From a virus, in the IMG/VR virus record IMGVR_UViG_3300047287_000218, positions 1 through 31,329 of that record: a DNA stretch of 31,329 bases; one strand, 5' to 3'. Shown one piece after another: positions 4,010 to 31,329 of the stretch (position 1 is its first letter; every line of letters starts with the position of its first letter). The notes below the pieces were generated by a model. That model did not search any database. It saw only the letters and a program-made list of their open reading frames with translations, and was not told where the DNA came from. Both the position numbers and the translations under genes were made by a program.

Positions 4010-7000
4010 TTATTTAGTACTTAGCAATTGTTGAACCAGAGCTTTTAGCTCAGCGATTTCTTTTGCCTGTGCTTCAATTTTATCGTTCAAATCTTTAGTA
4101 GATTCAATTAATGCACCAACCATTGCGCCGTGATTAACGTGCAAGGTCTTCATTTCATCATTGGCTTCACCAACAACTTCTGGGAATACTTCTCTGATCT
4201 CTTGTGCAATTACACCAATTTGGCGCTTGCCGTCCTTATCAAAGTAAACACCACGTAATTTTACAACTTTGTCTAGTGCTTTGTCAATAGTTGCAATGTT
4301 TGTTTTCAAACGTGCATCTGAGTAAGCTGTAACTTCACCGGCAAATGTTGCGTTACCTGTGTTAGAGATAGATGCTTTGTTACCGTTGGTTACATCACGG
4401 AAGATCCAACCACGGTTAGCAGTGGCATCCATTGTAAAGTATGTTGCCCAATCTGCTGTTACGTTGCCGTGTGTACCCCATGTAGCAGTTTGTCCAAAGA
4501 ATATACCGTATGTTGGTTGACCTGCTACTGCACCGTTGTACAACGATAAACCGTAACCTGTGCTACCGCTTGTGTTATGTACACCTAAGTAGTTGCCGTT
4601 AACTGTACCGCTACTTGTGTTTGTAGCTGTTGTAGCAGTCGACGAGTTACCGGAGCAACTTGTAGAGCTACCGTTAATGTTCATTGTTTGGCCGCTGATT
4701 GCAGAAGCTACTGCGGCAGGAGTGTAACTGCGGATATAGTAATCACTAGAGTTAAAGCCTGCAAAGTAACTCATGCCAGATGCGTTACGTTCGCTACCGC
4801 CACCGCTGGTATAGAAGTAGTTGTTTTGAATGTAACCGTTGCTATCACGTTGTACGATTAAGTTTGCGCCGCCTGTTGTGTTTGGTGCGTAGCCGCCTAG
4901 TGTGGCCGCGTTACCTGTAATACTAATACCCCATGTACCGCTAGCACCAGTACCAGTTAGTGTTGGACTATAGCTGTTGTAGTTGGCCGCTGTTAGAACT
5001 TCATAGAAGCTGTTCCATGTGCTGTCAATACCGTTACGAATTCTTAGTCTTGGTGTACCAGAACCGTTGGTTGCTGTGCTACCAAATGCCAGCTGATACG
5101 ATGCATCGCCTGTACTTGCACTAGTACCTGTGTATGGTGCAAATGTCATTACACCACCGTAGTTACCGTTAGTACCGATTGCGCTGGCGTTAACAAAGTC
5201 AAAACGTACACTTTGGCCAAATGTTGTTGGCAATGTGCTGGCCAATGTTCTATCTCTATCGTAGCTAGGAACTGCTGTTGCACTAGCAACCGTGCCAGAC
5301 ACGCTGACTGTTACTGCGCCAGTCGAGCCGCTAACTGCAATGTTTGTACCTGCTACTAAACTAGTTACCCCAGAGTTTGTAATAGTTACTGCACCAGTTG
5401 CTCCGCTTACACTAATACCTGTACCTGCAACGTTGCTGGTTACACCATTGTTAGTTACAGTTGTACCGCTTACGCCAATACCAGTACCCGCAGTAACTAC
5501 AGTGATATCTGCGCTACCGTTAAAACTTACACCTTGAATATTACGTGCAGTTTGTAATGTAGTAGCTGTACCTGCGTTACCTGTTGTAGTTGTAGCAGTT
5601 GTAGCCGTAGTTGCGTTACCGCTTAAAGTCGCTGTAATTGTACCAGCAGAGAAGTTACCACTTGCATCACGAGCAACAATGGTACTTACTGTGTTTGCAC
5701 TTGTAGCGTTGCTTGTAATTGTTACACCGCCTGTTGCACCACTAATGCTTAAACCAGTTCCGCTTACTGCCGCACTTGTTACACCCGTGTTGGTAATTGT
5801 TACTGCACCTGTTGCACCGCTTACGCTAATACCTGTACCAGCAACGTTGCTAGTTACACCTGTGTTAGTAATAGAAACTGCGCCGGTTGCACTAGTGTTT
5901 GCACTTAAACCACTACTTGTTGTAAGAGAAGTAACACCTGCGTTGGTAACAGTTGTACCGCTAATACTAATACCAGTGCCAGCAGTATGAACTGTTATGT
6001 CAGCACTGCCGTTAAAACTTACGCCGTTGATTAAACGAGCTGTTGTTAATGTATCTGCTGTACCTGCTGTAGCAACGTTTAAGTTAGCTACGCGAGTAGT
6101 ACTAGATACTGTAAATGGTGCTGTACCAGTTGTGGCGGCCGCAATAAATGTTGCACCTTTATAATTTCCGTATGTTCCAGAGAATGTACCAGTAGTTTCT
6201 GTACCATCTACAAAGTATTCTAATGCTTGTGTTGTATTATCAAAAACCAAGGCCGCGTTTTTATCGCTGGTTTTATAGTAGTGGAAACGGAAACCAATAT
6301 CTTTACCGTTATCAGAAGTTAGTACGCCACCGTTAATATAGTTTAATTCAATCAACGAGTCAGTGTACGCGGCATTTGCGCTGTTAGCTGTAATTGTAGA
6401 TCCGTTAATGGTCAAGTTACCAGTAATTGTTAAATCACCTGGAAGTGTAACTGAGCTTGGAAGACTCAATGTTACGCCGCCTGTACTAGCACTGGCTGTA
6501 ATTTGGTTAGCTGTGCCAGCAATGCTGGTTACACCTGTATTGGTAACTGCTGTTCCGCTTACGCTAATACCTGTACCTGCTGTAACTACAGTAATGGCCG
6601 CACTGCCGTCAAAGTTTACACCTTGGATAGCACGTGGTGTTTGCAATGTAGTAGCTGTACTTGCGTTACCGGTTAATGCACCAGTGAACGATGTAGAAGT
6701 CACGCTGGTTAAGCCAGCTAGTGTTGTAGAGCTTGAACCTAAGCTAATTGCTGTTGTACCAACTGTTACCGAACTGTTAACCAATTTAGCGTTAGCAATT
6801 GAACCTGCTAGCATTGTGTTAGTAACTGTACCAGTGTCAGTTGTGTAAACTCCGTTTGTAACTGTACTTGCATTACCTGTTAATGCGCCAACAAAACTTG
6901 TCGATGTTACGCTAGTCAAACCAGCTAAAGTAGTTGAACTTGAACCCAGGCTGATTGCAGTTGTACCAACAGTGACACTACTGTTTGTTAATTTTGCGTT

Positions 7001-8179
7001 GGCGATAGATCCTGCCAACATTGTGTTGGTAACTGTACCACTATCACCAGTTGTAACAATCGTACCAGTTGTTGCTGGAATTGTTAATACTGTACCTGTG
7101 CCTACTGCCGCAACAGGAACCAATTGTACTGTGCCGCTTGTGCTACCTGGTAATGTGACTGAGCTAATACCAGTTAATGCCAAGTTTGCACTTGCACGGT
7201 TTAGTGCCACACTAGTTGTACCAATGTAATGAACATCGGCAGAGTTAGCAATACCTGTAATAGTACCAGAGCTACCGTTAACACTTAACACACCAGTGTT
7301 AGCGATTGTAACTGCTGTGCTACCGTTGTAGCTAGTACCGCTTAGGCCTGTACCAATAGTTAGTGCGGCCAAGTTGCTACCTAATTGAATTCCAGAGATT
7401 GTACTATTCGCTAACTTACTATTAGCAATGCTACCAGCCAACATAGTATTTGTAACTGTACCAGAATCGCCTGTTGTAACAATCGTACCAGTTGTTGCTG
7501 GAATTGTTAATACCGTACCTGTACCAACTGCCGCGGTTGGGATTAACTGAACTGTGCCGCTTGTGCTACCTGGTAATGTGACTGAGCTAATACCGGTTAA
7601 TGCCAAGTTTGCACTTGTTCTGTTTAGCGCAACAGATGTTGTACCAATGTAATGTGTATCAGCTTTTAACGCTACTGTGCTATCAATGCCTACAGTAATG
7701 GCCGCTGTTTCACTGCCGCTACCACTAACAGTAATACCAGATCCTGCTGTTACAGTAGCAACATAGTTGCCAGTTGTATCTGTACCTAATACTACTGTGT
7801 TTGCCCCAATGGTAGTTGATATAGTAGCGTTAGCAGATCCGTCAAAACTTACACTACCAGTTACGTCGCCTGTTAAAGCAATTGTTCTTGCAGTTGCTAG
7901 TTTATTTGCAATAGTGTACGAACCTGCAATGCCGTCTTCTGCGTCTGTTAAGAACGCGGCCGCGGCCAATACTGTAATATTCTTTTCAACAGCGTCTAAG
8001 CGGTCACTAATGTTGGACTTTTTACCAATGATAACAATGTCCGTAGTTGTAATAGAAGCATCGTCAGTATAAGTGTCATAGGCACCTGTTGTCCTATTCA
8101 ACTTGTAGTTATTGGTGCCGCTGGCTAAGTCAGCTCCAACACCTGCGTTTCTAATTTGATATTTTCTTGAGTTGCTCAT
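4010..8179 (-). CDS. Tail fibre with C-terminal S74 chaperone
   Basis: A 1389-residue fibre. The N-terminal 80 residues (through KSNISDRLDAVEKNITVLA) look like an attachment or coiled-coil segment. Residues up to about 1280 are tandem Thr/Ser/Gly/Val modules: two near-identical HYIGTTSVALNR / LTGISSVTLPGSTSG blocks and many TAGTGISVSG / VTNTGVTS units. The last 105 residues are a Peptidase_S74 intramolecular chaperone: AYSDARLKTNI (S1287, D1288), then IGVIAQEIREVFPEVV and a terminal coiled coil. In this family the domain trimerises the fibre and cleaves itself off at the Ser of the SD motif. A ribosome-binding site (AGGA) precedes the ATG, which lies 15 bases after the neighbouring fibre's stop. 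It is probably a host-recognition fibre. Confidence 0.9.
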   Translation of the reverse strand: MSNSRKYQIRNAGVGADLASGTNNYKLNRTTGAYDTYTDDASITTTDIVIIGKKSNISDRLDAVEKNITVLAAAAFLTDAEDGIAGSYTIANKLATARTIALTGDVTGSVSFDGSANATISTTIGANTVVLGTDTTGNYVATVTAGSGITVSGSGSETAAITVGIDSTVALKADTHYIGTTSVALNRTSANLALTGISSVTLPGSTSGTVQLIPTAAVGTGTVLTIPATTGTIVTTGDSGTVTNTMLAGSIANSKLANSTISGIQLGSNLAALTIGTGLSGTSYNGSTAVTIANTGVLSVNGSSGTITGIANSADVHYIGTTSVALNRASANLALTGISSVTLPGSTSGTVQLVPVAAVGTGTVLTIPATTGTIVTTGDSGTVTNTMLAGSIANAKLTNSSVTVGTTAISLGSSSTTLAGLTSVTSTSFVGALTGNASTVTNGVYTTDTGTVTNTMLAGSIANAKLVNSSVTVGTTAISLGSSSTTLAGLTSVTSTSFTGALTGNASTATTLQTPRAIQGVNFDGSAAITVVTAGTGISVSGTAVTNTGVTSIAGTANQITASASTGGVTLSLPSSVTLPGDLTITGNLTINGSTITANSANAAYTDSLIELNYINGGVLTSDNGKDIGFRFHYYKTSDKNAALVFDNTTQALEYFVDGTETTGTFSGTYGNYKGATFIAAATTGTAPFTVSSTTRVANLNVATAGTADTLTTARLINGVSFNGSADITVHTAGTGISISGTTVTNAGVTSLTTSSGLSANTSATGAVSITNTGVTSNVAGTGISVSGATGAVTITNTGVTSAAVSGTGLSISGATGGVTITSNATSANTVSTIVARDASGNFSAGTITATLSGNATTATTATTTTGNAGTATTLQTARNIQGVSFNGSADITVVTAGTGIGVSGTTVTNNGVTSNVAGTGISVSGATGAVTITNSGVTSLVAGTNIAVSGSTGAVTVSVSGTVASATAVPSYDRDRTLASTLPTTFGQSVRFDFVNASAIGTNGNYGGVMTFAPYTGTSASTGDASYQLAFGSTATNGSGTPRLRIRNGIDSTWNSFYEVLTAANYNSYSPTLTGTGASGTWGISITGNAATLGGYAPNTTGGANLIVQRDSNGYIQNNYFYTSGGGSERNASGMSYFAGFNSSDYYIRSYTPAAVASAISGQTMNINGSSTSCSGNSSTATTATNTSSGTVNGNYLGVHNTSGSTGYGLSLYNGAVAGQPTYGIFFGQTATWGTHGNVTADWATYFTMDATANRGWIFRDVTNGNKASISNTGNATFAGEVTAYSDARLKTNIATIDKALDKVVKLRGVYFDKDGKRQIGVIAQEIREVFPEVVGEANDEMKTLHVNHGAMVGALIESTKDLNDKIEAQAKEIAELKALVQQLLSTK
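7018..7658 (-). repeat. Near-identical ~210-bp direct repeat in fibre gene
   Basis: Two copies, about 7018-7235 and 7441-7658, are offset by 423 bases (141 codons). They share long identical runs around GTAACAATCGTACCAGTTG and CTACCTGGTAATGTGACTGA. They encode the TGDSGTVTNTMLAGSI / HYIGTTSVALNR blocks. A more diverged third copy lies in the next fibre gene near 10000-10200. Recent internal duplication or gene conversion is the likely cause. Confidence 0.85.
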
Positions 8180-20992: not shown

Positions 20993-23128
20993 TTAAGCGT
21001 AAGCCCCTGCCTGTTCAACAGCTTTACCAGTTCTTTCGGTGTTATCAGCAATCATTTTTTGCTGTCTTACACTAGACTTGGTAGCGTCTGCCATTTCTTG
21101 CATTAGTTGAGTTTGTTCTTTTTGTACATCGGCCATGTTACCATATGAATATGATTCACGTTTAACTGTGGCCGCTACCACTGGGCTACTTGCGTCACTG
21201 ACTTCACTGCCCATGATTGGGTTTCCCATGGCATCTGTTTTCATCTGTCCAGGAGCATTAGTTTCTTCTTTGCTAACGCCTAGTACTTTACGTCCTAGCC
21301 AAGAACTCTTTAACCAATCATAAAGCATAGTAAACGGCTTCATGGCCATTTCACCGATAGTCATCAGCAACTTAAATGGAGCTGTCATAACGTCCCATAC
21401 TGCATTGCCTATTGCTTTAAACACGTTAACAACTACGTCTAATATGTCGGATGCAGTATCCCATATGGAATCACCTATGCCTATTAGGGTTTCACTAAAG
21501 AAAGTCATTACAGATGTTAATTTTTCAAACGTCCATACGACTGCGGTACGCAATGCATGTATTACTGGGTTTAACATTGCAAATGCTTTGCCTACTAGCC
21601 ACATTGCTGGCTTTAGTACAGCCATGATAAAGTCAACAAATCCGCCTAGCATACTAACTGTAAAATCTAATGCGTCTGCTAAGCCGTCGATCATTTCCGT
21701 TGGAATTAAGTCAATGAATCCAAACAGTTTGCTACTTAATTTTTCAAAGGTAGCACCCATCTTTTCGCTGATGCTTTTTAATTTTTCTTCTGCACGGCCT
21801 TTGGCTTTAATTGCTTCAAGTTCTTCGGTACTCATTTCTGTGTACTTTTTAGCATTGTTATACATTTCTAACAATCGCTTGGCACTTGCATCGCCTTGCT
21901 GTGCCAACAACTGCAATGTAGGAATATTAGGTCCCATGCTGTTAACCATGGCTTGTGCGCTAGCGCCAAATTCTCCTGCGCTAACTGTGTTATCTTTTAA
22001 TTTCTTCTGGAAGTTATCAAGTACTTGAATATCCGCAAACGGCGCTATTTCCTGGCCTAGCTTAGTGTTAATAATACTTAGGCCTGCACTTTGTGCTTCA
22101 GCTACTTGATTAAACAACTCTTTACCTAGCTGTCCAAATACCGCTTCAAATCCGCTGGCTCCACGTGCCAATGCTACAACTGCTTCTTCTGTACTACGTC
22201 CAAATTGCTTTAAGCCGTTGATAATAACTGGACTCTTTAACAAGTCGCCTAGGCTCTTTTTCATTGCGTTCATATCTGCGCCAGTGGCTATACTAACATT
22301 ACGCAATGTTTCTAAACTCTTACCATAGGCTTTGGCCGCACCGCTTACGGCATCTGCACCTTTGGCTCCTGTGGCCGCAAATACGTTAATAAAGTCTGCA
22401 CTGCCTTTGGCTAGGTCAGCCGCACTCATACCAAAGGTGCCGTAAGTATCTCTAACTTGCGTTTGCAAGTCACCAAACGCACGGGCCGCATCCATACCAT
22501 TTGAGCCTAATGCTCTATATGCTTGTCCTGTTTCTTTTAATGCACCATAAAAACTCTTTAATGCCAATCCCGAGTTAGCCGCAATTTCTGCACTTTCGCC
22601 TAATTTGCTACTATAACCCAAGCCAGCATTGACCATGTCTTCCATGCTGTCCAAGTATTCTTTAGTTTTGTTGGCCAGCATCATTAGGCCTTGGCCTGCA
22701 ACTTGTAATGCAAGTCCCCATGGACCGCCCATATACTGTCCAAGTGCAGACATGCCGCTACTCATTGTACCCATGGCCTCTGCTACACCAGCACTACTTT
22801 TAGAAATTTGGAATAACTTTTTAGAACCTTCAAATGCCGCAGTGCCAAACATACCTATAGTACTGCTATGGCGCATGGCATTTGTGCCCATGTCACCAAA
22901 GTTCTTTTTAAGTGACTTGGCTGTTTCGCCCAAGTCTTCTAGTTGCTCAACTGGATTTGTTGAGCCGGGGGCAGATGCACCGCCGCCCGCTTTGCCTGAG
23001 CTTGCCCCAGTCGCGCCGGCACTACTACCGCCAAACTTGTCTAGCAGTTTAAGTAGCGTTTCTTCTGTTGCCCATTGGGGACGACTCGACCCGTCTGGTA
23101 AGTTAATATCCTGTGGTGGTTTAGCCAT
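20993..23128 (-). CDS. Tape-measure-like tail protein
   Basis: A 711-residue protein with tape-measure architecture. It has a Gly/Ser/Ala-rich N-terminal linker (about 30-60), then a long helical Ala-rich region with small hydrophobic patches (MSSGMSALGQYMGGPWGLAL). The region of about 480-590 is strongly hydrophobic (MLGGFVDFIMAVLKPAMWLV, TFFSETLIGIGDSIWDTASD), as in tape measures that contact the host membrane. A helical C-terminus follows. In tailed phages this protein sets tail length and is threaded through the tube. Here it is transcribed into gp20, with a late-promoter-like octamer 33 bases upstream, and sits opposite the gp26-like gene. It would correspond functionally to T4 gp29, but direct homology is not visible by eye. 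Confidence 0.75.
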   Translation of the reverse strand: MAKPPQDINLPDGSSRPQWATEETLLKLLDKFGGSSAGATGASSGKAGGGASAPGSTNPVEQLEDLGETAKSLKKNFGDMGTNAMRHSSTIGMFGTAAFEGSKKLFQISKSSAGVAEAMGTMSSGMSALGQYMGGPWGLALQVAGQGLMMLANKTKEYLDSMEDMVNAGLGYSSKLGESAEIAANSGLALKSFYGALKETGQAYRALGSNGMDAARAFGDLQTQVRDTYGTFGMSAADLAKGSADFINVFAATGAKGADAVSGAAKAYGKSLETLRNVSIATGADMNAMKKSLGDLLKSPVIINGLKQFGRSTEEAVVALARGASGFEAVFGQLGKELFNQVAEAQSAGLSIINTKLGQEIAPFADIQVLDNFQKKLKDNTVSAGEFGASAQAMVNSMGPNIPTLQLLAQQGDASAKRLLEMYNNAKKYTEMSTEELEAIKAKGRAEEKLKSISEKMGATFEKLSSKLFGFIDLIPTEMIDGLADALDFTVSMLGGFVDFIMAVLKPAMWLVGKAFAMLNPVIHALRTAVVWTFEKLTSVMTFFSETLIGIGDSIWDTASDILDVVVNVFKAIGNAVWDVMTAPFKLLMTIGEMAMKPFTMLYDWLKSSWLGRKVLGVSKEETNAPGQMKTDAMGNPIMGSEVSDASSPVVAATVKRESYSYGNMADVQKEQTQLMQEMADATKSSVRQQKMIADNTERTGKAVEQAGAYA

Positions 23129-23180: not shown

Positions 23181-24026
23181 ATGGAAAACACACGCATGAA
23201 CCCACTGATTCAGTATAACAGAAGGCCTGCCAGATACGTTAAATTGCCAAGTATGGGAAAATGCTATCTCAAAGGTATTGATTTAACAGACACAAACGAA
23301 GTAGCCATTTATCCAATGACTGCCAAAGACGAATTATTATTGAAAAGCCCGGATGCTTTGCTCAACGGCGAATCAATCAAACAAGTCTTTAAAACCTGTG
23401 TGCCTGGTATTGTAGATCCAAATGAAATCCCTATCATTGATATGGATGCTATCATGGTAGGTATTCGCATGGCCACATATGGCGACCATATGGAACTTGA
23501 CTTTACTCATGATTGCGAACCTGATGCAGTAACACAAGTTAACGTTAACTTGGGTAACATATTAGACTCTACAACATTCTATGGCGGCGATGTGGAAGTT
23601 GTATTGCCAGGAAGTGGCATGAGAGTGTTTGTTAAGCCCTATACTTTAGTAGAACAAAACAAAGTTAATATTGCTGGCTTTGAAGAAATGGCCAAGAGCC
23701 AACAAGTAGAAGCAGAAGTTAAAGAGCAATTGCAAAAGCTAAAAATGGCTGGCAAGAGCTTTACACGTTTGTTGGATGCTACTTTAGACTTGATTACAGC
23801 CAGCATTGACAAAGTAATTACCCCTGACAATCAAGAGTTTACAGACAAGAAAATTATCAGGGAATGGGTAACATCTATTAGCAAGCCTGAGTTCGACTTA
23901 ATCGACAGAGCACTCAAGAGCATTACAGATGTTGGAGTTAACAGTAAAATTGTAGTTAAGTGCGCCAAATGCGGACAAGACTATAACGCCGAACTAACAT
24001 TCAACCCTAGCGATTTTTTCGGTTAA
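23181..24026 (+). CDS. 26: gp26-like baseplate hub/tail assembly protein
   Basis: A 281-residue protein of the T4 gp26-type family (Pfam T4 baseplate family, from memory). The motif series LPSMGKCYLKGIDL, VAIYPMTAKDELLLKSPDAL, LNGESIKQVFKTCVPGI and DMDAIMVGIRMATYGDHMEL is diagnostic. The C-terminus has CAKCG, then LTFNPSDFF, a likely zinc-binding end; the equivalent upstream pair is degenerate (THDC). A longer open frame extends upstream, but GGAG at 23169-23172 and the late promoter at 23139 fix the ATG at 23181. In T4, gp26 is needed for hub assembly. The stop is preceded by a slippery heptamer, and a -1 shift would join it to the following small frame, giving about 358 residues. Confidence 0.88.
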   Translation: MENTRMNPLIQYNRRPARYVKLPSMGKCYLKGIDLTDTNEVAIYPMTAKDELLLKSPDALLNGESIKQVFKTCVPGIVDPNEIPIIDMDAIMVGIRMATYGDHMELDFTHDCEPDAVTQVNVNLGNILDSTTFYGGDVEVVLPGSGMRVFVKPYTLVEQNKVNIAGFEEMAKSQQVEAEVKEQLQKLKMAGKSFTRLLDATLDLITASIDKVITPDNQEFTDKKIIREWVTSISKPEFDLIDRALKSITDVGVNSKIVVKCAKCGQDYNAELTFNPSDFFG

Positions 24027-24051
24027 GGCTTTCTCAATTACTGAAAGAGCC
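24014..24051 (+). promoter_or_regulatory. Candidate programmed -1 frameshift site
   Basis: T TTT TTC (24014-24020) lies exactly in the zero frame as codons GAT TTT TTC, two codons before the gp26-like stop. A six-base spacer is followed by a stem: GGC+TTTC (24027-24033) with GAAA+GCC (24043-24051, two-base bulge), loop nine bases. After a -1 shift the frame (CGG TTA AGG CTT ...) has no stop and runs into the downstream small gene. Heptamer, spacer length, structure and frame all fit a canonical signal. Confidence 0.75.
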
Positions 24052-24061
24052 CGCTAAACTA

Positions 24062-24256
24062 ATGCAATTCGTTAGCTCTTTCGAAAAAGACCAGAAGGCC
24101 ATACAAAAAGATTTAATGCTATTAGCCATATACAGCGGAATGCCTTACAGCGAAATCTATAACTTATGTCCAGAAGAACGCAATGCTCTTTCCGAAGCAC
24201 TACAATATAAAGCTGAACAAGAAGAAAGAGCTATGAAAGAATCTACAAGAAGATAA
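24062..24256 (+). CDS. Small helical protein, likely frameshift extension of gp26-like
   Basis: From the ATG this is 64 residues, helical and charged, with FEKDQKAIQKDLMLLAIYSG and LCPEERNALSEALQYKAEQE. The same frame is open back to the slippery site at 24020, adding 14 residues (RLRLSQLLKEPAKL) that also look like coding sequence. No convincing ribosome-binding site precedes the ATG. It holds the place of T4 gene 51 relative to gene 26, but it is much shorter than T4 gp51 and I do not claim homology. I infer it is made mainly as the C-terminal extension of the gp26-like protein, as in tail-assembly chaperone pairs beside tape-measure genes. It ends just before a hairpin terminator. Confidence 0.7.
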   Translation: MQFVSSFEKDQKAIQKDLMLLAIYSGMPYSEIYNLCPEERNALSEALQYKAEQEERAMKESTRR

Positions 24257-24564: not shown

Positions 24565-24732
24565 CTTTACGTATACTAAACCCAGTTCTTTTCAAGCAAT
24601 TGAACTTCGTCCTGTTAAGGATAGTGGAGTTAGTCTTTGCTACGGCGCAAAATTTCCATCCCTGTGCTCACGCTTGGCCAGGTGCAGGATCCCTTAATAT
24701 GCGGCCGGGACTGGGCCTATCCGTAGTTTTTA

Positions 24733-25161
24733 TTAGAGTTTGTTTATAATGTGGGAGCCGTGGACGCGAACTTGAATGTGCCCGTTGTAATAATCTGCTG
24801 ATTCCAGTACCCTGTGTGTGAACTGTTCTCTAGCTTCTATATATGAGCATTGTGCCTTAGATGTGCAGTAAAATAAGATTTCTCTAGTAAAATTATCTTT
24901 GCCTAGGGTTTCTACGTCTTTGTTGAGTTGGTCGTTTGAGCCATAATATTCGCGCCAATCGCTGTCGATTTTGCTACGAATTTTCTTTTTCTTTTTGTTG
25001 CCGTTTTTGAGTTTGACTGTTTTATAAGTTGTTTTCGAGAATTTTGCCAATTTTTTGCCAATATATTTGCGGCCTGTGGCATTATTTGTAATAATGTACA
25101 CAAACCCAATACAATCTTCCGGAAGTGTTTCCACTTCAATCCCTTGATACAGCCAAGTCAT
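24733..25161 (-). CDS. GIY-YIG family endonuclease
   Basis: A 142-residue protein with a GIY-YIG nuclease core: VYI (21-23) and YIG (33-35) in GFVYIITNNATGRKYIGKK. These are followed by a Lys-rich loop (about 47-62), SDWREYYGSN (Arg near residue 70) and CSYIEAREQF with the candidate metal-binding Glu. Proteins of this layout are free-standing, Seg-like nucleases common in T4-type phages. Homing at the neighbouring region is possible but not shown. It lies 14 bases after the unknown gene and is the last gene of the leftward auxiliary operon. The ribosome-binding site is weak. The domain call is firm; whether it homes, repairs or degrades host DNA is open. Confidence 0.85.
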   Translation of the reverse strand: MTWLYQGIEVETLPEDCIGFVYIITNNATGRKYIGKKLAKFSKTTYKTVKLKNGNKKKKKIRSKIDSDWREYYGSNDQLNKDVETLGKDNFTREILFYCTSKAQCSYIEAREQFTHRVLESADYYNGHIQVRVHGSHIINKL

Positions 25162-25175
25162 AGCTTACTATATAG

Positions 25176-25826
25176 TCAAGGTAGTTGATTTTGACCACTT
25201 TCTAGGTTTTCTAAATTTACGCCTTGAATAATTGGGGAAGTTGCTAATTTTATACTATTGGGACTGATTAATGTTGCCACGGTTTCTTCGTAATGTTGGT
25301 TAACTTGTTCTAATGTTTGTGCTTTTTTGATTTTATCTGTAAATGTATATCTTAAAGATTCTAATTGAAAAACTGCTAATTCGTATTCTTCTCGTTTAAA
25401 TTTTAAAAGTTTGTCTGCTTGATCCGCAGTACAGCCATGTGTATGCATTATAACATCTATCCATCGCTGACGATTATATTCACTCTGATCCATGTACATC
25501 TGGTGATTAGAGTAATTGTATTTTTCATACTGATAATCACAGGCAGAACTAATCCAATTTACAGCCATGCATTTGGCTCTGGAAAACTGAACTTGCTTGA
25601 ATGTAGCAGGGTTAGTGGACTTTTTATAAAAAGTTTTGTTTTTAATATTATAGTGTAGTTGATAGGACAAGTAAAGTTTCCACAGGTTTAATTCTGTCGA
25701 CCCGCTGTACATGAAAAAATTTAAATTAATTTCCAAGGAAGGCGGTTGTGTATCTAAGAAATAACTTAGCCACACTACTTGTTCGGAAACTTGATCAACT
25801 AATATTTTAACTCTGTTTAGTGCCAT
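25176..25826 (-). CDS. Unknown protein in auxiliary operon
   Basis: A 216-residue protein not recognised. The N-terminal half is rich in aromatic and hydrophobic residues (VVWLSYFLDTQPPSLEINLN, FKQVQFSRAKCMAVNWISSA). The middle has many Tyr/Asn/Gln, and the C-terminal half is helical (ADQADKLLKFKREEYELAVF). There is no membrane segment or known catalytic motif. The start lies inside the PP-loop gene upstream, overlapping it by 20 bases in a different frame, which implies translational coupling. Its conserved position in an enzyme operon suggests a partner subunit or a substrate-binding protein, but this is inference only. Confidence 0.65.
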   Translation of the reverse strand: MALNRVKILVDQVSEQVVWLSYFLDTQPPSLEINLNFFMYSGSTELNLWKLYLSYQLHYNIKNKTFYKKSTNPATFKQVQFSRAKCMAVNWISSACDYQYEKYNYSNHQMYMDQSEYNRQRWIDVIMHTHGCTADQADKLLKFKREEYELAVFQLESLRYTFTDKIKKAQTLEQVNQHYEETVATLISPNSIKLATSPIIQGVNLENLESGQNQLP

Positions 25827-26880
25827 TTATAACTTCTCTGCGTTTGCTAAACTTTAACATATCATTTTCGTAATAGATTTGTGTTTTAAAAACATGGCGT
25901 AGACTCATACGTTGACTGAATATTTTTTGTTTATTCAAATAGTATTCGTCGCCTGTGCTATTAACAATATACCTTTTAAACCATAGCTTATTATCAATGT
26001 AAGTATGATACTCAGGGTTAGTACTCATGTATTCGAAACTAAACGTCATTAGAGCATCATCGTAAAAAAATCGAAACACTTTGTTTTGACTAGCCAGCTC
26101 AGACAAATCTTCAGTAGTACTCCAATACCACGGCCTTATTAAGTCGTCTTGATGATCTAGTGCATTAGCCCACCACCAAGTCATTTGATTAATAGACTTA
26201 ATTTCAAACGGCGCATTTTTTACAATTGTAAACATTAGGTCTTGATAAAACGCATTGTCTGTAAGTCCAGCTACCCTTGGCAATACATGTTTCCAAGGTA
26301 ACATTAAATCTAAGTCGCCTGGCTTACCGTCAGTAAATCTTAATACGTCACTAGAGCCTATAACATGATCGCCCATGTCTCCGGTTACTAACATAACATC
26401 AGGATCTTGCATTAGTCGTAGATAATCTAATGTAATAATAGGTATAGATGGTAGTATATCTCTATAAAACTGTTCAGGATACTCGTCTATACTGATACTG
26501 GTCAGTGCAACTTTAAATTTGCCTTGCTCGACTTTTTCTTTAAACTTAGGATGCTTTTGTAAAGATACTAGTATGCAAGAACTATCGATACCGCCACTCC
26601 AAGTCAGCACAATAGTCTTATCGCCAGCAGTTGTGAATACCCTGTCAGCTACTTGATCTAAAATGCTATAAAGTCTACATTCCCAATCATTGGTTAGATT
26701 GGTTAAGTTGTATACAGGATCTTTTACTATACTGTATGTAGGAAGTTCTAATTTATTTTCCAATACATTAAATCGATCTACTGGAAATTCAAACCATCCG
26801 GCAACACTTTTAAATCCTTGTCTATAAGGCATAGACTCGTAGTCTAATTCGTTCCAATTAGCCCATACATATTTTCTCAT
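25807..26880 (-). CDS. PP-loop (asparagine-synthase-like) ATP pyrophosphatase
   Basis: A 357-residue protein with a PP-loop SGGIDSS at residues 95-101 preceded by strand IVLTW, the ATP-pyrophosphatase signature of asparagine synthase and related adenylating enzymes. A later LVTGDMGDHVIGSSD (about 163) resembles the GDE/GGxD segment after the PP-loop in asparagine-synthase domains. No N-terminal glutaminase is present (no Cys2), so the amine donor or partner must differ. A frame from TTG at 26886 exists, but the ATG at 26880 is preferred. That ATG follows the upstream stop by two bases, with AGG just before it. Such enzymes form amide, thio or similar bonds through an acyl- or nucleotidyl-adenylate. 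Substrate unknown. Confidence 0.8.
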   Translation of the reverse strand: MRKYVWANWNELDYESMPYRQGFKSVAGWFEFPVDRFNVLENKLELPTYSIVKDPVYNLTNLTNDWECRLYSILDQVADRVFTTAGDKTIVLTWSGGIDSSCILVSLQKHPKFKEKVEQGKFKVALTSISIDEYPEQFYRDILPSIPIITLDYLRLMQDPDVMLVTGDMGDHVIGSSDVLRFTDGKPGDLDLMLPWKHVLPRVAGLTDNAFYQDLMFTIVKNAPFEIKSINQMTWWWANALDHQDDLIRPWYWSTTEDLSELASQNKVFRFFYDDALMTFSFEYMSTNPEYHTYIDNKLWFKRYIVNSTGDEYYLNKQKIFSQRMSLRHVFKTQIYYENDMLKFSKRREVINGTKQS

Positions 26881-26882
26881 AA

Positions 26883-27968
26883 TCAACCTGTAGTCACGCC
26901 TCTAACAATTCTAGTAGCTAATAAATTATGAGTATGCGGTGTAGTTACGTATTCGATTAGATCAGCAATAGGTGTAGTAATTACTTGTCCGTCTGAAATG
27001 CCATCAGCGGCATCGATAAGATACTTTTGATACAACACTTCTTTGCCCGAATTAAAATTCTTGCCTTGTAGTTGCTCGAATCCTGTATACTTTCTAGCAG
27101 GAACCATTTCAGGCCATTCACGCTGTGTCATTAAAGGCTTGAACAGCATGTGGAAACAGCGCCACCACATTCTAGCATGAGGATGCCATCTACAAAAAAC
27201 TTCGTAAACTGTATCTTGTGCATTAAGGAAATCTGTAACCACAGGGTCAGTTAAGTATGCCGCAATAATTTCCGGAGTGTAAAGATAAAATTTACTAGTG
27301 CCTTCATAGCCCATGGCCATCATATGTTGCATAATGGGCAACGGGGTTTGCCACCACACGGGTCTAACCATGTCGTCTAAATTGGGAATAGTAGGTAACT
27401 GCTCTGCAACATCTGGAGTTACATAAGTCTTATAAGGAGCAAACACAATGTCGCCACCGCCCATGATATAACAGTAGTCCTGTCCTACAAAGTCCATAGT
27501 GGCGCATTGTAGTATAGTATGAACACCCGTTAATCCGTACTTGGCCGCATACTCTTTGCCCTTAGTGGCATAATATTCGTCTATGTTAATTTCAAAGTCG
27601 ATCCACTCGATTCCATATTTTTCGCAGAATACATAAGCAGTTTTAATATCATGCCCGTTGACTAACTTTTCTTCGCTGTCATACATTTTGACAATAACAA
27701 CTTTAAAAGGAATGCCTGCTTCTCTAAAACTCAAGCAGACCATTTGACTATCACTGCCTCCGCTAAGTCCTACAATAATAGGCTTAGTAGCTTTTGCGGC
27801 AATTTTCCTAGCAACGTCTATACATTCTTCCCTGAAGCGCATTACAGGACGAGTAGTATACCCTAGTTGAATTTTGTATTGCTTTTCAGGATCAGGACGA
27901 TTGTACCATTCATCGCCAAATCCCCATTTGAAATGATTGTTTTCTGTATATTCAAATTTTAAGTCCAT
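26883..27968 (-). CDS. PP-loop ATP-pyrophosphatase-like enzyme
   Basis: A 361-residue protein with GLSGGSDSQMV (PP-loop at residues 69-74) after strand PIIV. It then has a Rossmann-like pattern, KVVIVKMYDSEEKLVNGHD, DIKTAYVFCEKYGIEWIDFE and YCYIMGGGDIVFAP. The C-terminal half is Trp/His/Met-rich with no known motif. It is the N-type ATP pyrophosphatase (asparagine-synthase/adenylyl) superfamily, but not clearly QueC, PAPS reductase or ThiI. It overlaps the papain-fold-like gene by 17 bases and abuts the second PP-loop gene. Two different PP-loop enzymes in tandem suggest two activation steps or a heterodimer. The start ATG at 27968 lies within the upstream gene. Confidence 0.78.
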   Translation of the reverse strand: MDLKFEYTENNHFKWGFGDEWYNRPDPEKQYKIQLGYTTRPVMRFREECIDVARKIAAKATKPIIVGLSGGSDSQMVCLSFREAGIPFKVVIVKMYDSEEKLVNGHDIKTAYVFCEKYGIEWIDFEINIDEYYATKGKEYAAKYGLTGVHTILQCATMDFVGQDYCYIMGGGDIVFAPYKTYVTPDVAEQLPTIPNLDDMVRPVWWQTPLPIMQHMMAMGYEGTSKFYLYTPEIIAAYLTDPVVTDFLNAQDTVYEVFCRWHPHARMWWRCFHMLFKPLMTQREWPEMVPARKYTGFEQLQGKNFNSGKEVLYQKYLIDAADGISDGQVITTPIADLIEYVTTPHTHNLLATRIVRGVTTG

Positions 27969-28476
27969 GATTTTTCCAAGTCTGTCTGCTTCTGTGTCCT
28001 ATTGCTGGCCATGGCTGTTTGATATCCAAGTTTAATTTATGCAATAGGTATGATGTAAATGTGTTACAGTTATTTTTTAACAAATCAAAAGTAGTAACCT
28101 TATAAGGATATTCTTCGCAAGCATCGACAATGTCGTTATAGTCCAATGTATTAGTGCAGTATCCTTTTATAACTGGGTCAGCACCAAACCATCGTGCATT
28201 TGCTGGCCTATTACTAATATAGGGAGCATGAAGCTGATATTCTTCTCTGCCGCCATATATAACTTTCCCTGACTGTACTTCTAATGTTTCTCTGTCAGTG
28301 TACTCTACTACTAATTGTTGTTTATGCTTGTCCGACCACCATGTAAGGTAACTGTGTCTGCCCAATAGATAACCTTTTAAATGCCACGCCCTGGCATGTA
28401 CATAGTATATTTTATCTCTTTCAAACTGTAAGTCAATAGGACTTTGATCGCAAAGTCGCCAATCCTTAAAAATCAT
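27952..28476 (-). CDS. Possible papain-fold (PPPDE/DUF-like) hydrolase
   Basis: A 174-residue protein. Near the C-terminus, FDLLKNNCNTFTSYLLHKL (Cys137) closely follows the 'Y-LL--NCN-F--LL--L' pattern of permuted papain-like (PPPDE-type) thiol hydrolases. A candidate catalytic His precedes it, as in those permuted enzymes: H41 in GRHSYLTWW, or H27/H32. If right, it would be a cysteine peptidase, deamidase or amidase. It overlaps the dioxygenase gene upstream by four bases (ATGA) and the PP-loop gene downstream by 17 bases, so it belongs to the pathway. The family assignment rests on one motif and is tentative. Confidence 0.6.
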   Translation of the reverse strand: MIFKDWRLCDQSPIDLQFERDKIYYVHARAWHLKGYLLGRHSYLTWWSDKHKQQLVVEYTDRETLEVQSGKVIYGGREEYQLHAPYISNRPANARWFGADPVIKGYCTNTLDYNDIVDACEEYPYKVTTFDLLKNNCNTFTSYLLHKLNLDIKQPWPAIGHRSRQTWKNHGLKI

Positions 28477-29312
28477 GCAGGCACCTTTTCAAAATCTTTA
28501 TAAGGGCTAGCAGGACTTTGTTCCATCTCGTAGTAATTAATATGTTGGCGATCGTAAGCGGCACGCCAATTCTTTACATCCGTGTCCCAATTACCAGTAG
28601 GTGCAGGATCATGTAACATGTAGTTGTAATGATCTTCTCCGGCAACCATTACAGTTGATTCTGGGCTAATAGCTAATATAGGTTTACATTCTGTACTGGC
28701 AAGAATCATTCCCATGGCCACTCTATCGGTGTTGGCTTGATTTGGGCCGCTACCATGAATGATATAAGGACTGTGTAATAGTACACTACCAGCTGGTACT
28801 GTGGTCTTAATACGTTCCTTAGGTAATTCTTCGTCAACTGTTTGTCCTCGCATTAGCAAGTTAGTTGATGTTTTAACATCCTTGTGCTTACGCTGAAATA
28901 CTCTATGACTGCCTTGTACATATTCAAGACTACCATGCTCAGGTACTACATCGTCAAAAGCAAACCACGCAGTTACAGCCAAATGCTTTTTGTCAAAGTT
29001 CCAGTAAGTAGCGTCTTGATGGAAACTAACGTCTTTGCCATCGCCTGGTTTCTTAAGCCAAAACAATGTGTCCCAACAATGAATGTTAGGACCAATTAAT
29101 TCAGTTAGTGCTTCTATTAATCGAGGATTGCGACTAATCTTGTCAACAAAAGGAAATAGTACATTACTCTTGCAACGATAGTCGCTGTTCATTAGCTGAA
29201 GTTTTTCTTCAGCTTCTAATACTTGCTGTTTAAGTTCTAATGCCTCAGCCTTGCTCATTAGCTGGATAGGACCTACCCAACCATTTTGTTCAAATTGTTC
29301 TTTTAATGTCAT
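28473..29312 (-). CDS. PhyH-type Fe(II)/2-oxoglutarate dioxygenase
   Basis: A 279-residue protein with the phytanoyl-CoA dioxygenase (PhyH) layout. The metal motif is H98-x-D100 in SFHQDATYW, with the distal His at H186 in HSPYIIHGSGPN. R197 (TDRVAMG) is the expected 2-oxoglutarate carboxylate ligand. GSLEYVQGSHR is the typical following strand pair. All key residues are present, so it should be an active hydroxylase or halogenase-like oxygenase; D100 favours hydroxylation over halogenation. It overlaps the GNAT gene and the papain-fold-like gene by four bases each. The substrate could be an amino acid, peptide, sugar or nucleobase; the sequence does not say. Confidence 0.9.
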   Translation of the reverse strand: MTLKEQFEQNGWVGPIQLMSKAEALELKQQVLEAEEKLQLMNSDYRCKSNVLFPFVDKISRNPRLIEALTELIGPNIHCWDTLFWLKKPGDGKDVSFHQDATYWNFDKKHLAVTAWFAFDDVVPEHGSLEYVQGSHRVFQRKHKDVKTSTNLLMRGQTVDEELPKERIKTTVPAGSVLLHSPYIIHGSGPNQANTDRVAMGMILASTECKPILAISPESTVMVAGEDHYNYMLHDPAPTGNWDTDVKNWRAAYDRQHINYYEMEQSPASPYKDFEKVPA

Positions 29313-29773
29313 ACTATTGTCTTTTCCATTCTGTAAAAGTCCGGCTTCATACCTACAGCTTCACAGCTGGCATAGCGAACTTTATTATCTACATGAACGT
29401 GACTAGCTATTCTTTTTGACCCAGCATTTTTTACAATCTGTTCAAAATGTCTATGCATAATCATATATAGACCTCTTCGACGGAATCCGTCCTCAACACA
29501 ACTAAACACAATCCAAGCAGTTTTGTAAGCATCGTCTAAAATATCATAAACAATGTGTCCTGCTACTTCGTCGTTGACTTCTATATAAACTGCTTTGCTT
29601 TTGTTTGTGCCAAATAAGAAAGGATTCGAATGTCCGTTGTCAATTAAATCTGCATAATTACGCAGAAAAAACGGTAACACAGGGCTACCGCCTATTTGCT
29701 GTGCTAGCTTGACACTTACTTCGACTCCGGTTTTATCTTTTTCTTTTGTAATTAATATATCTGCATTGGCCAT
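29309..29773 (-). CDS. GNAT-family N-acetyltransferase
   Basis: A 154-residue protein with the GNAT core: strand VAGHIVYDIL (70-79), strand AWIVFSCV (86-93), and motif A EDGFRRRGLYMIMHRHF (94-110) with the R-R-x-G-x acetyl-CoA pyrophosphate loop. It ends with SHVHVDNKVRYASCEAVGMK, the typical beta-6/beta-7 region. It transfers an acetyl (or other acyl) group to an amine. It is the first gene of the auxiliary operon proper; its ATG follows the gp46-like stop by one base and its stop overlaps the PhyH start by four. Acceptor unknown. Confidence 0.87.
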   Translation of the reverse strand: MANADILITKEKDKTGVEVSVKLAQQIGGSPVLPFFLRNYADLIDNGHSNPFLFGTNKSKAVYIEVNDEVAGHIVYDILDDAYKTAWIVFSCVEDGFRRRGLYMIMHRHFEQIVKNAGSKRIASHVHVDNKVRYASCEAVGMKPDFYRMEKTIV

Positions 29774-29774
29774 T

Positions 29775-31329
29775 TTATACCTCTATCATGTCTACATCTA
29801 GTCCAAACGTGGTAAACCCGTTTTCTTTTGTAACTTGTAGAATCGTATTTACACGACTTACCAGTTCGTCTCTGTGCGAAATTAAGAAGATATTTTTGCT
29901 TTGTTCGCGGGCCATTTTCTTAAGAATACCCAGTGCGCTGTCTACCCCGTTGGGATCCATGCCGCTGTCAATCATTTCGTCAATGAACAAAATATTAATA
30001 GGTGTATTGAGACTTTCGTAAACATCACGAAAACTCCAGCTCAAGCCTAGAATCAAACGATTACGTTCGCCACGACTTAGGTTGTCAAAGTCAAACTCTT
30101 GTCCCAGCTGACTGATAGTAACGCTCAAATCGCTTTGGAACTTTACTTCGTGCGGCAAGGCCAACTTTTCCAAGTAGTATTCAAGTCTGTGATTTAAGTA
30201 GCTCAAGTTCTGTTCAATAATCTTACGTCGAATGAAGCTGTCTTTGTTAGTCAACAATTTAAGCAAGAACTCTTGATGCTCGATTAAACGTGTAAGTTCG
30301 TTAACTCTAGTCCAGTCTAGCTCTGACAATGCTGTGGCCTTAAGATGATTAATTTGTTCGTCATAAGGATCGGACTCTAGCAACTTGTTTTCTAGTTGAT
30401 TGTATGTGTTGTCTAATGTAGTCTTGTGATTGATAGCATCGTCCAAGCTGGCATATTTTAGCACAGGGCAAGCACCCAAGTCGCCTAACGCTAGGATAGC
30501 ATCACTGGCTTCTTTTTCTAATACGTGCTCTTTGTCTAAGTCCGTTTGAATTAGCGCCACTGCATCTTTAATTTCACTGAGCATGGCTTCTTGTTTGCTA
30601 TCGTGAATGTCCTGCCCGCAAGCATGACACTTGTGGTCCTCAGCTTTGAGTAGTGCATTTGTTAATTCAGTAAGCTGAATATTCAAACGTTTTATTGCAC
30701 TTTGGTGTGTGCTCAGGTCTTTGTTGAAACGCTTTAGTCGTCCTTCTTTTTCACGCCATGCTGTTATTAATTGATGATTAGCTAGCTCTGCGTTAATGTC
30801 AATGCTTTCTAATTCTTCAATTACACGTTGCAACATAACAATGTCCTCGTCGTGCTTTTTAAGCCACACGCCGCTACGACGTTCTAAGTCTTCGATAGAA
30901 GTCTTAATCTTGTTATTACTTTCTTGCTGTGCTTTAATACGGAATTCTTCTTCTTTAAGACTATCCCTGCTACCCTTAGTAAGCTCTTTAAGTATGTCGG
31001 CTTTTTCGCTTAGTAATGTAATGCCCAACAACTGCTCAATAATAGCACGTTGGTCATTGCTTTTCATACTAAGAAAAGGCTCTGTGAATGTATTAAGGGC
31101 TAAGATGTGCTTAAACATATCGTAACTCATGCCCAGCACTTGCTCGATATGTTCCTGTGTTAGTCTGTTTTCGCCCTGACCTTCGTCGCTGGCGTTGCCA
31201 GTAATCTCGCTTTCGTTGACAATGAATTTGAAAATGTTAGGCTTACGACCTCTTTCGATTCTGTACGTTGATCCGTTCTTTTCGAAGTCGATAGTAACCA
31301 GCATGTTTTTGGCATTGGTTTTGTTAACA
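29775..31329 (-). CDS. 46: gp46-like recombination nuclease subunit, 5' end off window
   Basis: About 518 residues are visible. The frame is open past the ATG at 31304 to the right edge, and the upstream residues (VNKTNAKN) match the T4 gp46 context, so 31304 is internal and the N-terminal Walker A lies outside. GRKPNIFKFIVN and GMSYDMFKHILAL fit gp46/SbcC/Rad50. Long coiled coils flank a zinc-hook CxxC at C226/C229 (CHACGQ, numbered from 31304). The C-terminal ATPase half has LSRGERNRL (signature) and ILFIDEMIDSGMD (Walker B). With gp47 it resects DNA ends for phage recombination and host DNA breakdown. The next gene starts one base after its stop. Confidence 0.93.
   Translation of the reverse strand, partial: VNKTNAKNMLVTIDFEKNGSTYRIERGRKPNIFKFIVNESEITGNASDEGQGENRLTQEHIEQVLGMSYDMFKHILALNTFTEPFLSMKSNDQRAIIEQLLGITLLSEKADILKELTKGSRDSLKEEEFRIKAQQESNNKIKTSIEDLERRSGVWLKKHDEDIVMLQRVIEELESIDINAELANHQLITAWREKEGRLKRFNKDLSTHQSAIKRLNIQLTELTNALLKAEDHKCHACGQDIHDSKQEAMLSEIKDAVALIQTDLDKEHVLEKEASDAILALGDLGACPVLKYASLDDAINHKTTLDNTYNQLENKLLESDPYDEQINHLKATALSELDWTRVNELTRLIEHQEFLLKLLTNKDSFIRRKIIEQNLSYLNHRLEYYLEKLALPHEVKFQSDLSVTISQLGQEFDFDNLSRGERNRLILGLSWSFRDVYESLNTPINILFIDEMIDSGMDPNGVDSALGILKKMAREQSKNIFLISHRDELVSRVNTILQVTKENGFTTFGLDVDMIEV

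Follow-up and report, generated by a model that had tools for sequence, protein, structure and literature searches.

A putative single-gene tail assembly chaperone related to T4 gp26 and gp51, with a conserved site for a probable -1 frameshift, in jumbo and T4-like phages

Whether a gene resembling gp26 of phage T4 specifies a single protein or, by way of a -1 ribosomal frameshift, two proteins sharing their N-terminal part, is the question raised by a 31,329-nucleotide stretch of viral DNA (IMG/VR record IMGVR_UViG_3300047287_000218), referred to as a whole as the window. Its plus strand carries an open reading frame (23181–24026, ATG at 23181) for a 281-aa protein, a presumed short tail assembly chaperone, which matches PF12322 (T4_baseplate; E 4e-18, 66 bits versus a cut-off of 24.5) and PHROG 150 (E 1e-20), and whose 3' end is read directly from the sequence as AGC GAT TTT TTC GGT TAA. 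Because the frame ends in this way, the heptamer T TTT TTC (24014–24020, plus strand) stands in the 0-frame in the register of a tandem -1 slip (X XXY YYZ); as a preliminary description of this DNA had claimed, it lies two codons before the stop of the short product (TAA, 24024–24026). The -1 frame is closed on its upstream side by a TAG at 24008–24010, is open from 24011 and reaches a stop at 24254–24256, so delimiting an extension (24011–24256, plus strand) that would form the C-terminal part of a long chaperone; the codons read after the slip begin at 24020 (CGG TTA AGG...) and predict the junction ...DFF-RLRLS.... The predicted lengths, 281 aa without the shift and 358 aa with it, are those proposed earlier (281 and about 358), and the other details of that proposal, namely 14 open -1 codons leading into a small gene devoid of a ribosome-binding site, also hold: the first ATG of this follower is at 24062, exactly 14 -1 codons after 24020, and no Shine-Dalgarno sequence is found there. 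Canonical heptamers occur in frame 20 times among the 23 genes of the window (9107 codons), two of them being of the T6 type; that of the gp26-like gene is the sole case, among these 23 genes, in which the -1 frame runs more than 30 nt past the gene stop.

Relatives of the gp26-like protein are detected by tblastn in the jumbo phages RaK2, 121Q, GAP32, CBB, Munch, PA5oct, Atu_ph07, Phosso, XacN1 and others, with 25–33% identity and alignment over 98–99% of their length. Single queries and sub-alignments served for the comparison, the divergence within the alignment of all gp26 homologues (A1) being too great for a scan with a degenerate pattern. Among the first 20 loci examined, XacN1 and RAS14 have T TTT TTT at the homologous position and all others T TTT TTC; in all 20 the -1 frame enters a follower, the distance to the 0-frame stop being 6 to 36 nt. 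The heptamer pattern is shared by 15 additional jumbo loci, and the site is also present in S-PM2, phiM12, phiW-14, KVP40, HTVC008M and a 595-kb uncultured phage, in which the stop lies 66 nt further on. When lineages are defined as representatives with less than 60% gp26 identity (RaK2-like jumbo phages, PA5oct, Atu_ph07/Phosso, XacN1, cyanophages, HTVC008M, KVP40, phiM12, phiW-14 and the 595-kb phage being included), T TTT TT[C/T] with an open -1 extension is found at the homologous position in 25 lineages out of 25. The contrary picture envisaged in the preliminary description, i.e., homologues with a normal start and ribosome-binding site for the small gene and no conserved slippery site, is thus not the one observed, given that neither the start codon nor the ribosome-binding site is conserved. 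A scan of viral contigs with S-PM2 gp26, complemented by the loci from a PA5oct query, yielded 58 distinct junctions, nearly all of cyanophage type; every one of them has TTTTTTC, an open -1 frame and an equal distance to the stop. In gp26 of Salmonella phage ViI (L037, around 2265) there is neither a canonical heptamer nor an annotated follower at the -1 extension, which matches a gp51-type profile with 16 bits. At shorter evolutionary distance, positions 24012–24061 of the window are unchanged in two of three near relatives and differ at one position in the third, as opposed to 8–22% of sites differing in gp26; such near-invariance would fit dual coding, although in two of these relatives the follower itself shows little variation too.

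The nature of the extension becomes apparent from the comparison with T4, where gp26 and gp51 each match PF12322 end to end: gp26 is the short protein, while gp51 consists of the gp26 domain plus a C-terminal extension, covers PHROG 150 almost to its C-terminus and also matches PHROG 634. An HMM built from the -1 extensions of T4-like phages matches the C-terminus of gp51 in T4 and in six of seven relatives (16–29 bits; T4 gp51 itself 20 bits, iE 4e-6, the best shuffled control reaching about 6 bits). T4 gp26 is not matched by this HMM, nor is the seventh gp51 relative, L150, read as only 120 aa because its frame is interrupted. When the extensions of all 25 lineages, jumbo phages included, are combined in one HMM, full-length gp51 proteins are matched with 12–20 bits; lineage-rich HMMs are needed, probabilities being low when hhalign compares alignment A1 or A2 with an individual sequence of T4 gp51 or gp26. 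The S-PM2 extension matches PHROG 634 (E 4.5e-27) and positions 240–281 of PHROG 150, and in GenBank it is named gp51, the KVP40 record noting a resemblance to the C-terminal 40 residues of gp51. As for the jumbo phages, the PHROG 150 matches of their fusions end near the slip site; therefore the link between their extension and gp51 runs via the extensions of cyanophages and T4-like phages, and the jumbo extension taken by itself appears only weakly tied to gp51. On the strength of the profile matches and of the GenBank labels, the short form corresponds to gp26 and the long form to gp51. Gene content differs from that of T4, whose two PF12322 genes lie on opposite strands and lack the slippery site: a single PF12322 gene per record is found in the 13 jumbo-phage records with the site in the phage collection, in each of S-PM2, KVP40, HTVC008M, phiM12, phiW-14 and ViI, and in the 31-kb record of the window, which is a fragment. 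S-PM2 and KVP40 share heptamer and extension with the window, their small gene being annotated as gp51 or gp51-like, but are annotated as having two genes, and their extension (about 55–60 residues) is shorter than in jumbo phages.

Contrary to what is seen for the heptamer, the structure of the RNA downstream varies. The six-base spacer proposed for the window is indeed present (GGTTAA), while the seven-pair stem that was to follow it is replaced, in RNA folding, by a possible stimulatory hairpin (24027–24051, plus strand) of 6 + 3 pairs around a 1x1 mismatch, weak and unremarkable in stability (z -1.4), not conserved across lineages, and displaced by a different structure when a longer segment is folded. 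Strong hairpins are predicted 3' of the site in S-PM2 (z -5.5), XacN1 (-5.1) and PA5oct (-3.5), RNA folding found none after the site in Munch and Hallingskeid, and in cyanophages the stem after the site contains a C-G pair compensated to U-A in four of 14 sequences. Since the stems vary among lineages, it is the heptamer that represents the conserved element.

The same pattern could be thought to arise without any slippage of the ribosome. Where an AT-rich gene has a conserved pair of Phe codons, TTTTTT may result from mere codon bias, the follower being unrelated; indeed, FF is conserved as protein and several genomes favour TTT. Such a coincidence is hardly credible: even when conditioned on the two Phe and the preceding residue, and with codon usage taken from each locus itself, the joint probability of T TTT TT[C/T] across the 25 lineages, treated as independent, is 10^-13.2; TTT accounts for just 21–30% of Phe codons in XacN1, RAS14, phiM12 and phiW-14, yet the T-run is kept, and an unrelated follower would not share homology with the gp51 C-terminus. 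A slip of the polymerase, rather than of the ribosome, has the advantage of leading to the same outcome at the protein level, a base being added or dropped on the run of T (T6 to T8 at the site) to give a mixed mRNA population encoding the long form. A run of six is short for slippage of bacterial polymerases, and the X XXY YYZ register is kept in every lineage, as required by re-pairing of tRNAs but not by transcriptional slippage, which we regard as very improbable.

A somewhat better case, still an improbable one, can be made for ribosomes that complete the translation of gp26 and reinitiate in the -1 frame, on its stop or close by, the follower being then a separate small protein; annotators do call small genes of their own at this position. 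In about half of the 25 lineages, an ATG, GTG or TTG that could serve for such coupling lies in the -1 frame no more than 15 nt from the stop, several with TAATG or ATGA overlaps; but the start is not conserved, the first ATG past the stop being at 35 nt in the window, 68 in RaK2 and 131 in the L025 phage, the PA5oct extension has no ATG at all, and a ribosome-binding motif at the first ATG is seen in one lineage out of 25. A protein with its own start would, moreover, lose the conserved FFR..L residues, and the invariant in-frame heptamer would be left unexplained. In some phages a certain amount of free follower may come from reinitiation, which cannot, however, be the mechanism common to all lineages.

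Conservation of the site, homology of the extension to gp51 and the presence of a single gene in the 13 jumbo records together argue that the locus is very probably a single-gene tail assembly chaperone of the G/GT type, belonging to the T4 gp26/gp51 family and expressed via -1 frameshifting. That gp26 and its follower act as a chaperone pair, as suggested in the preliminary description, gains support from their homology to T4 gp26 and gp51, both of which a review of T4 describes as hub assembly chaperones, gp51 being required yet absent from the particle (PMC3004832). As modelled by AlphaFold (mean pLDDT 81), the window gp26 matches T4-type baseplate hub proteins in a viral structure library, and in a second-look list of PDB entries it aligns with the HK97 tail assembly chaperone 2ob9 (Z 6.4, 91/107 residues), tied with unrelated helical proteins, so that the match can be no more than suggestive of a chaperone fold. 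Foldseek returned no PDB match for this model at E<=0.001, and a profile search of PDB sequences gave nothing relevant.

The lambda G/GT system and the frameshifted chaperones of Xu, Hendrix and Duda 2004 (PMC5009743) resemble the present locus in having the heptamer near the end of the short ORF, a long form produced by a -1 shift, and a gene adjoining the probable tape measure gene; they differ from it in that no sequence similarity has been demonstrated, the heptamer is here T TTT TTC, and the probable tape measure gene is here divergent and not downstream. The neighbour in question encodes 711 aa on the minus strand (20993–23128), between gp26 and the portal gene gp20, and is probably the tape measure protein, as judged from moderate evidence: the tape-measure matches of its family are weak (PHROG 7025 for the window, E 3e-4; PHROG 3336 for XaC1), and the RaK2/121Q homologue is filed by PHROGs under head and packaging. 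Its length fits that of the tail loosely (722 aa and 123 nm in CBB; 798 aa and 136–140 nm in PA5oct/MIJ3), and the CBB homologue, CBB_251, is recorded in virions with 29 peptides. As regards the absence from the mature virion expected of a G/GT-type chaperone, CBB_250 is named in the text of the CBB paper and not in the passages covered from its virion protein table, but its product is entered in GenBank as 'structural protein'. Atu_ph07 gp701, annotated as 'tape measure', has only 205 aa and was not taken as support. In S-PM2 (L153:3857-6501), a very large protein directly follows the gp26/gp51 pair; its PHROG matches are of endolysin/peptidase type, and it also matches a tape measure weakly.

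Immediately 3' of the chaperone extension, an unannotated gap is conserved in RaK2-like jumbo phages (GAP32, L008:4660-5340; L009-L012, L015, L019, L024), with 70–93% nucleotide identity to GAP32 over 537–808 nt in pairwise BLAST; its consensus fold comprises 102 pairs, 35 of them compensated (alifold z -7.8 versus column shuffles), the energy being lower on the strand opposite gp26 (-80 versus -70). Rfam yielded no match to the gap at the gathering threshold in L008, L011 and L019, and it is a candidate for a new structured RNA of about 500 nt. The same relative position, here the gap beyond the follower, is occupied in the window by a Polynucleobacter-1 RNA (RF01718, 90.6 bits; 24575–24716, minus strand), found also in L001 and L003. 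Elsewhere in the window (24733–31304 and 4010–8179), Pfam matches comprise a SegE-type GIY-YIG endonuclease, an NAD synthase-like protein, a PhyH dioxygenase, a GNAT acetyltransferase, an SMC-like ATPase fragment and a tail fibre with a Peptidase_S74 chaperone.

The preliminary description was aware of no account of such frameshifting in gp26 relatives, but it has probably been described. Vladimirov, Gautam and Davidson 2022 (Virology 566:9) identified T4-like tail assembly chaperone genes, as cited in passages of PMC10885494 and PMC12846349; the PRFect paper cites it for T4-like phages in which a short and a long chaperone gene take the place of frameshifting, while the phage Adele paper (PMC12846349), where it cites the same work, credits it with poly-T slippery sites in T4-like TAC-N genes. 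The latter paper also describes a TAC locus in Vandenendeviridae/Andersonviridae with a GTTTTT motif, compared here by its description. Novelty is therefore limited, T4-like chaperones having been identified and poly-T slippery sites mentioned, at least as these citing passages have it. As regards jumbo phages, frameshifting is unmentioned in the CBB, phAPEC6, MIJ3, Atu_ph07 and Munch papers, and no report of a tail assembly chaperone with a programmed ribosomal frameshift was found in the literature on these phages, so that the jumbo-phage instance appears to be unremarked in searchable papers.

From these comparisons we infer the occurrence of slippage, its rate and the binding partners of the two products. 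Most ribosomes would terminate at 24026, releasing the 281-aa short form equivalent to gp26; a minority would slip by -1 on T TTT TTC, through a tandem slip of the two Phe codons onto UUU UUU, to produce the long form of 358 aa, equivalent to gp51, whose helical extension would comprise 78 residues. If lambda G/GT is taken as the model, the shared N-terminal domain would coat the tape measure protein, probably the 711-aa neighbour, the rare extension would recruit tail tube or initiator subunits, and neither form would stay in the virion.

It is somewhat more likely than not that -1 frameshifting is the original and almost universal route to the gp26/gp51 pair in T4-like and jumbo phages, up to the 595-kb phage, and that the two genes of T4 are a derived duplication in which the slippery site was lost. 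The proposed mechanism would account for the small orphan gene that annotations of many jumbo and cyanophage genomes list on its own or overlook; 'baseplate hub' labels would be replaced by that of tail assembly chaperone, and the T TTT TTC near the 3' end of gp26 would provide a usable annotation rule. The kinship of T4 gp26 and gp51 would, in turn, receive a testable account, in which a single frameshifting gene made both proteins before a separate gene arose for each.
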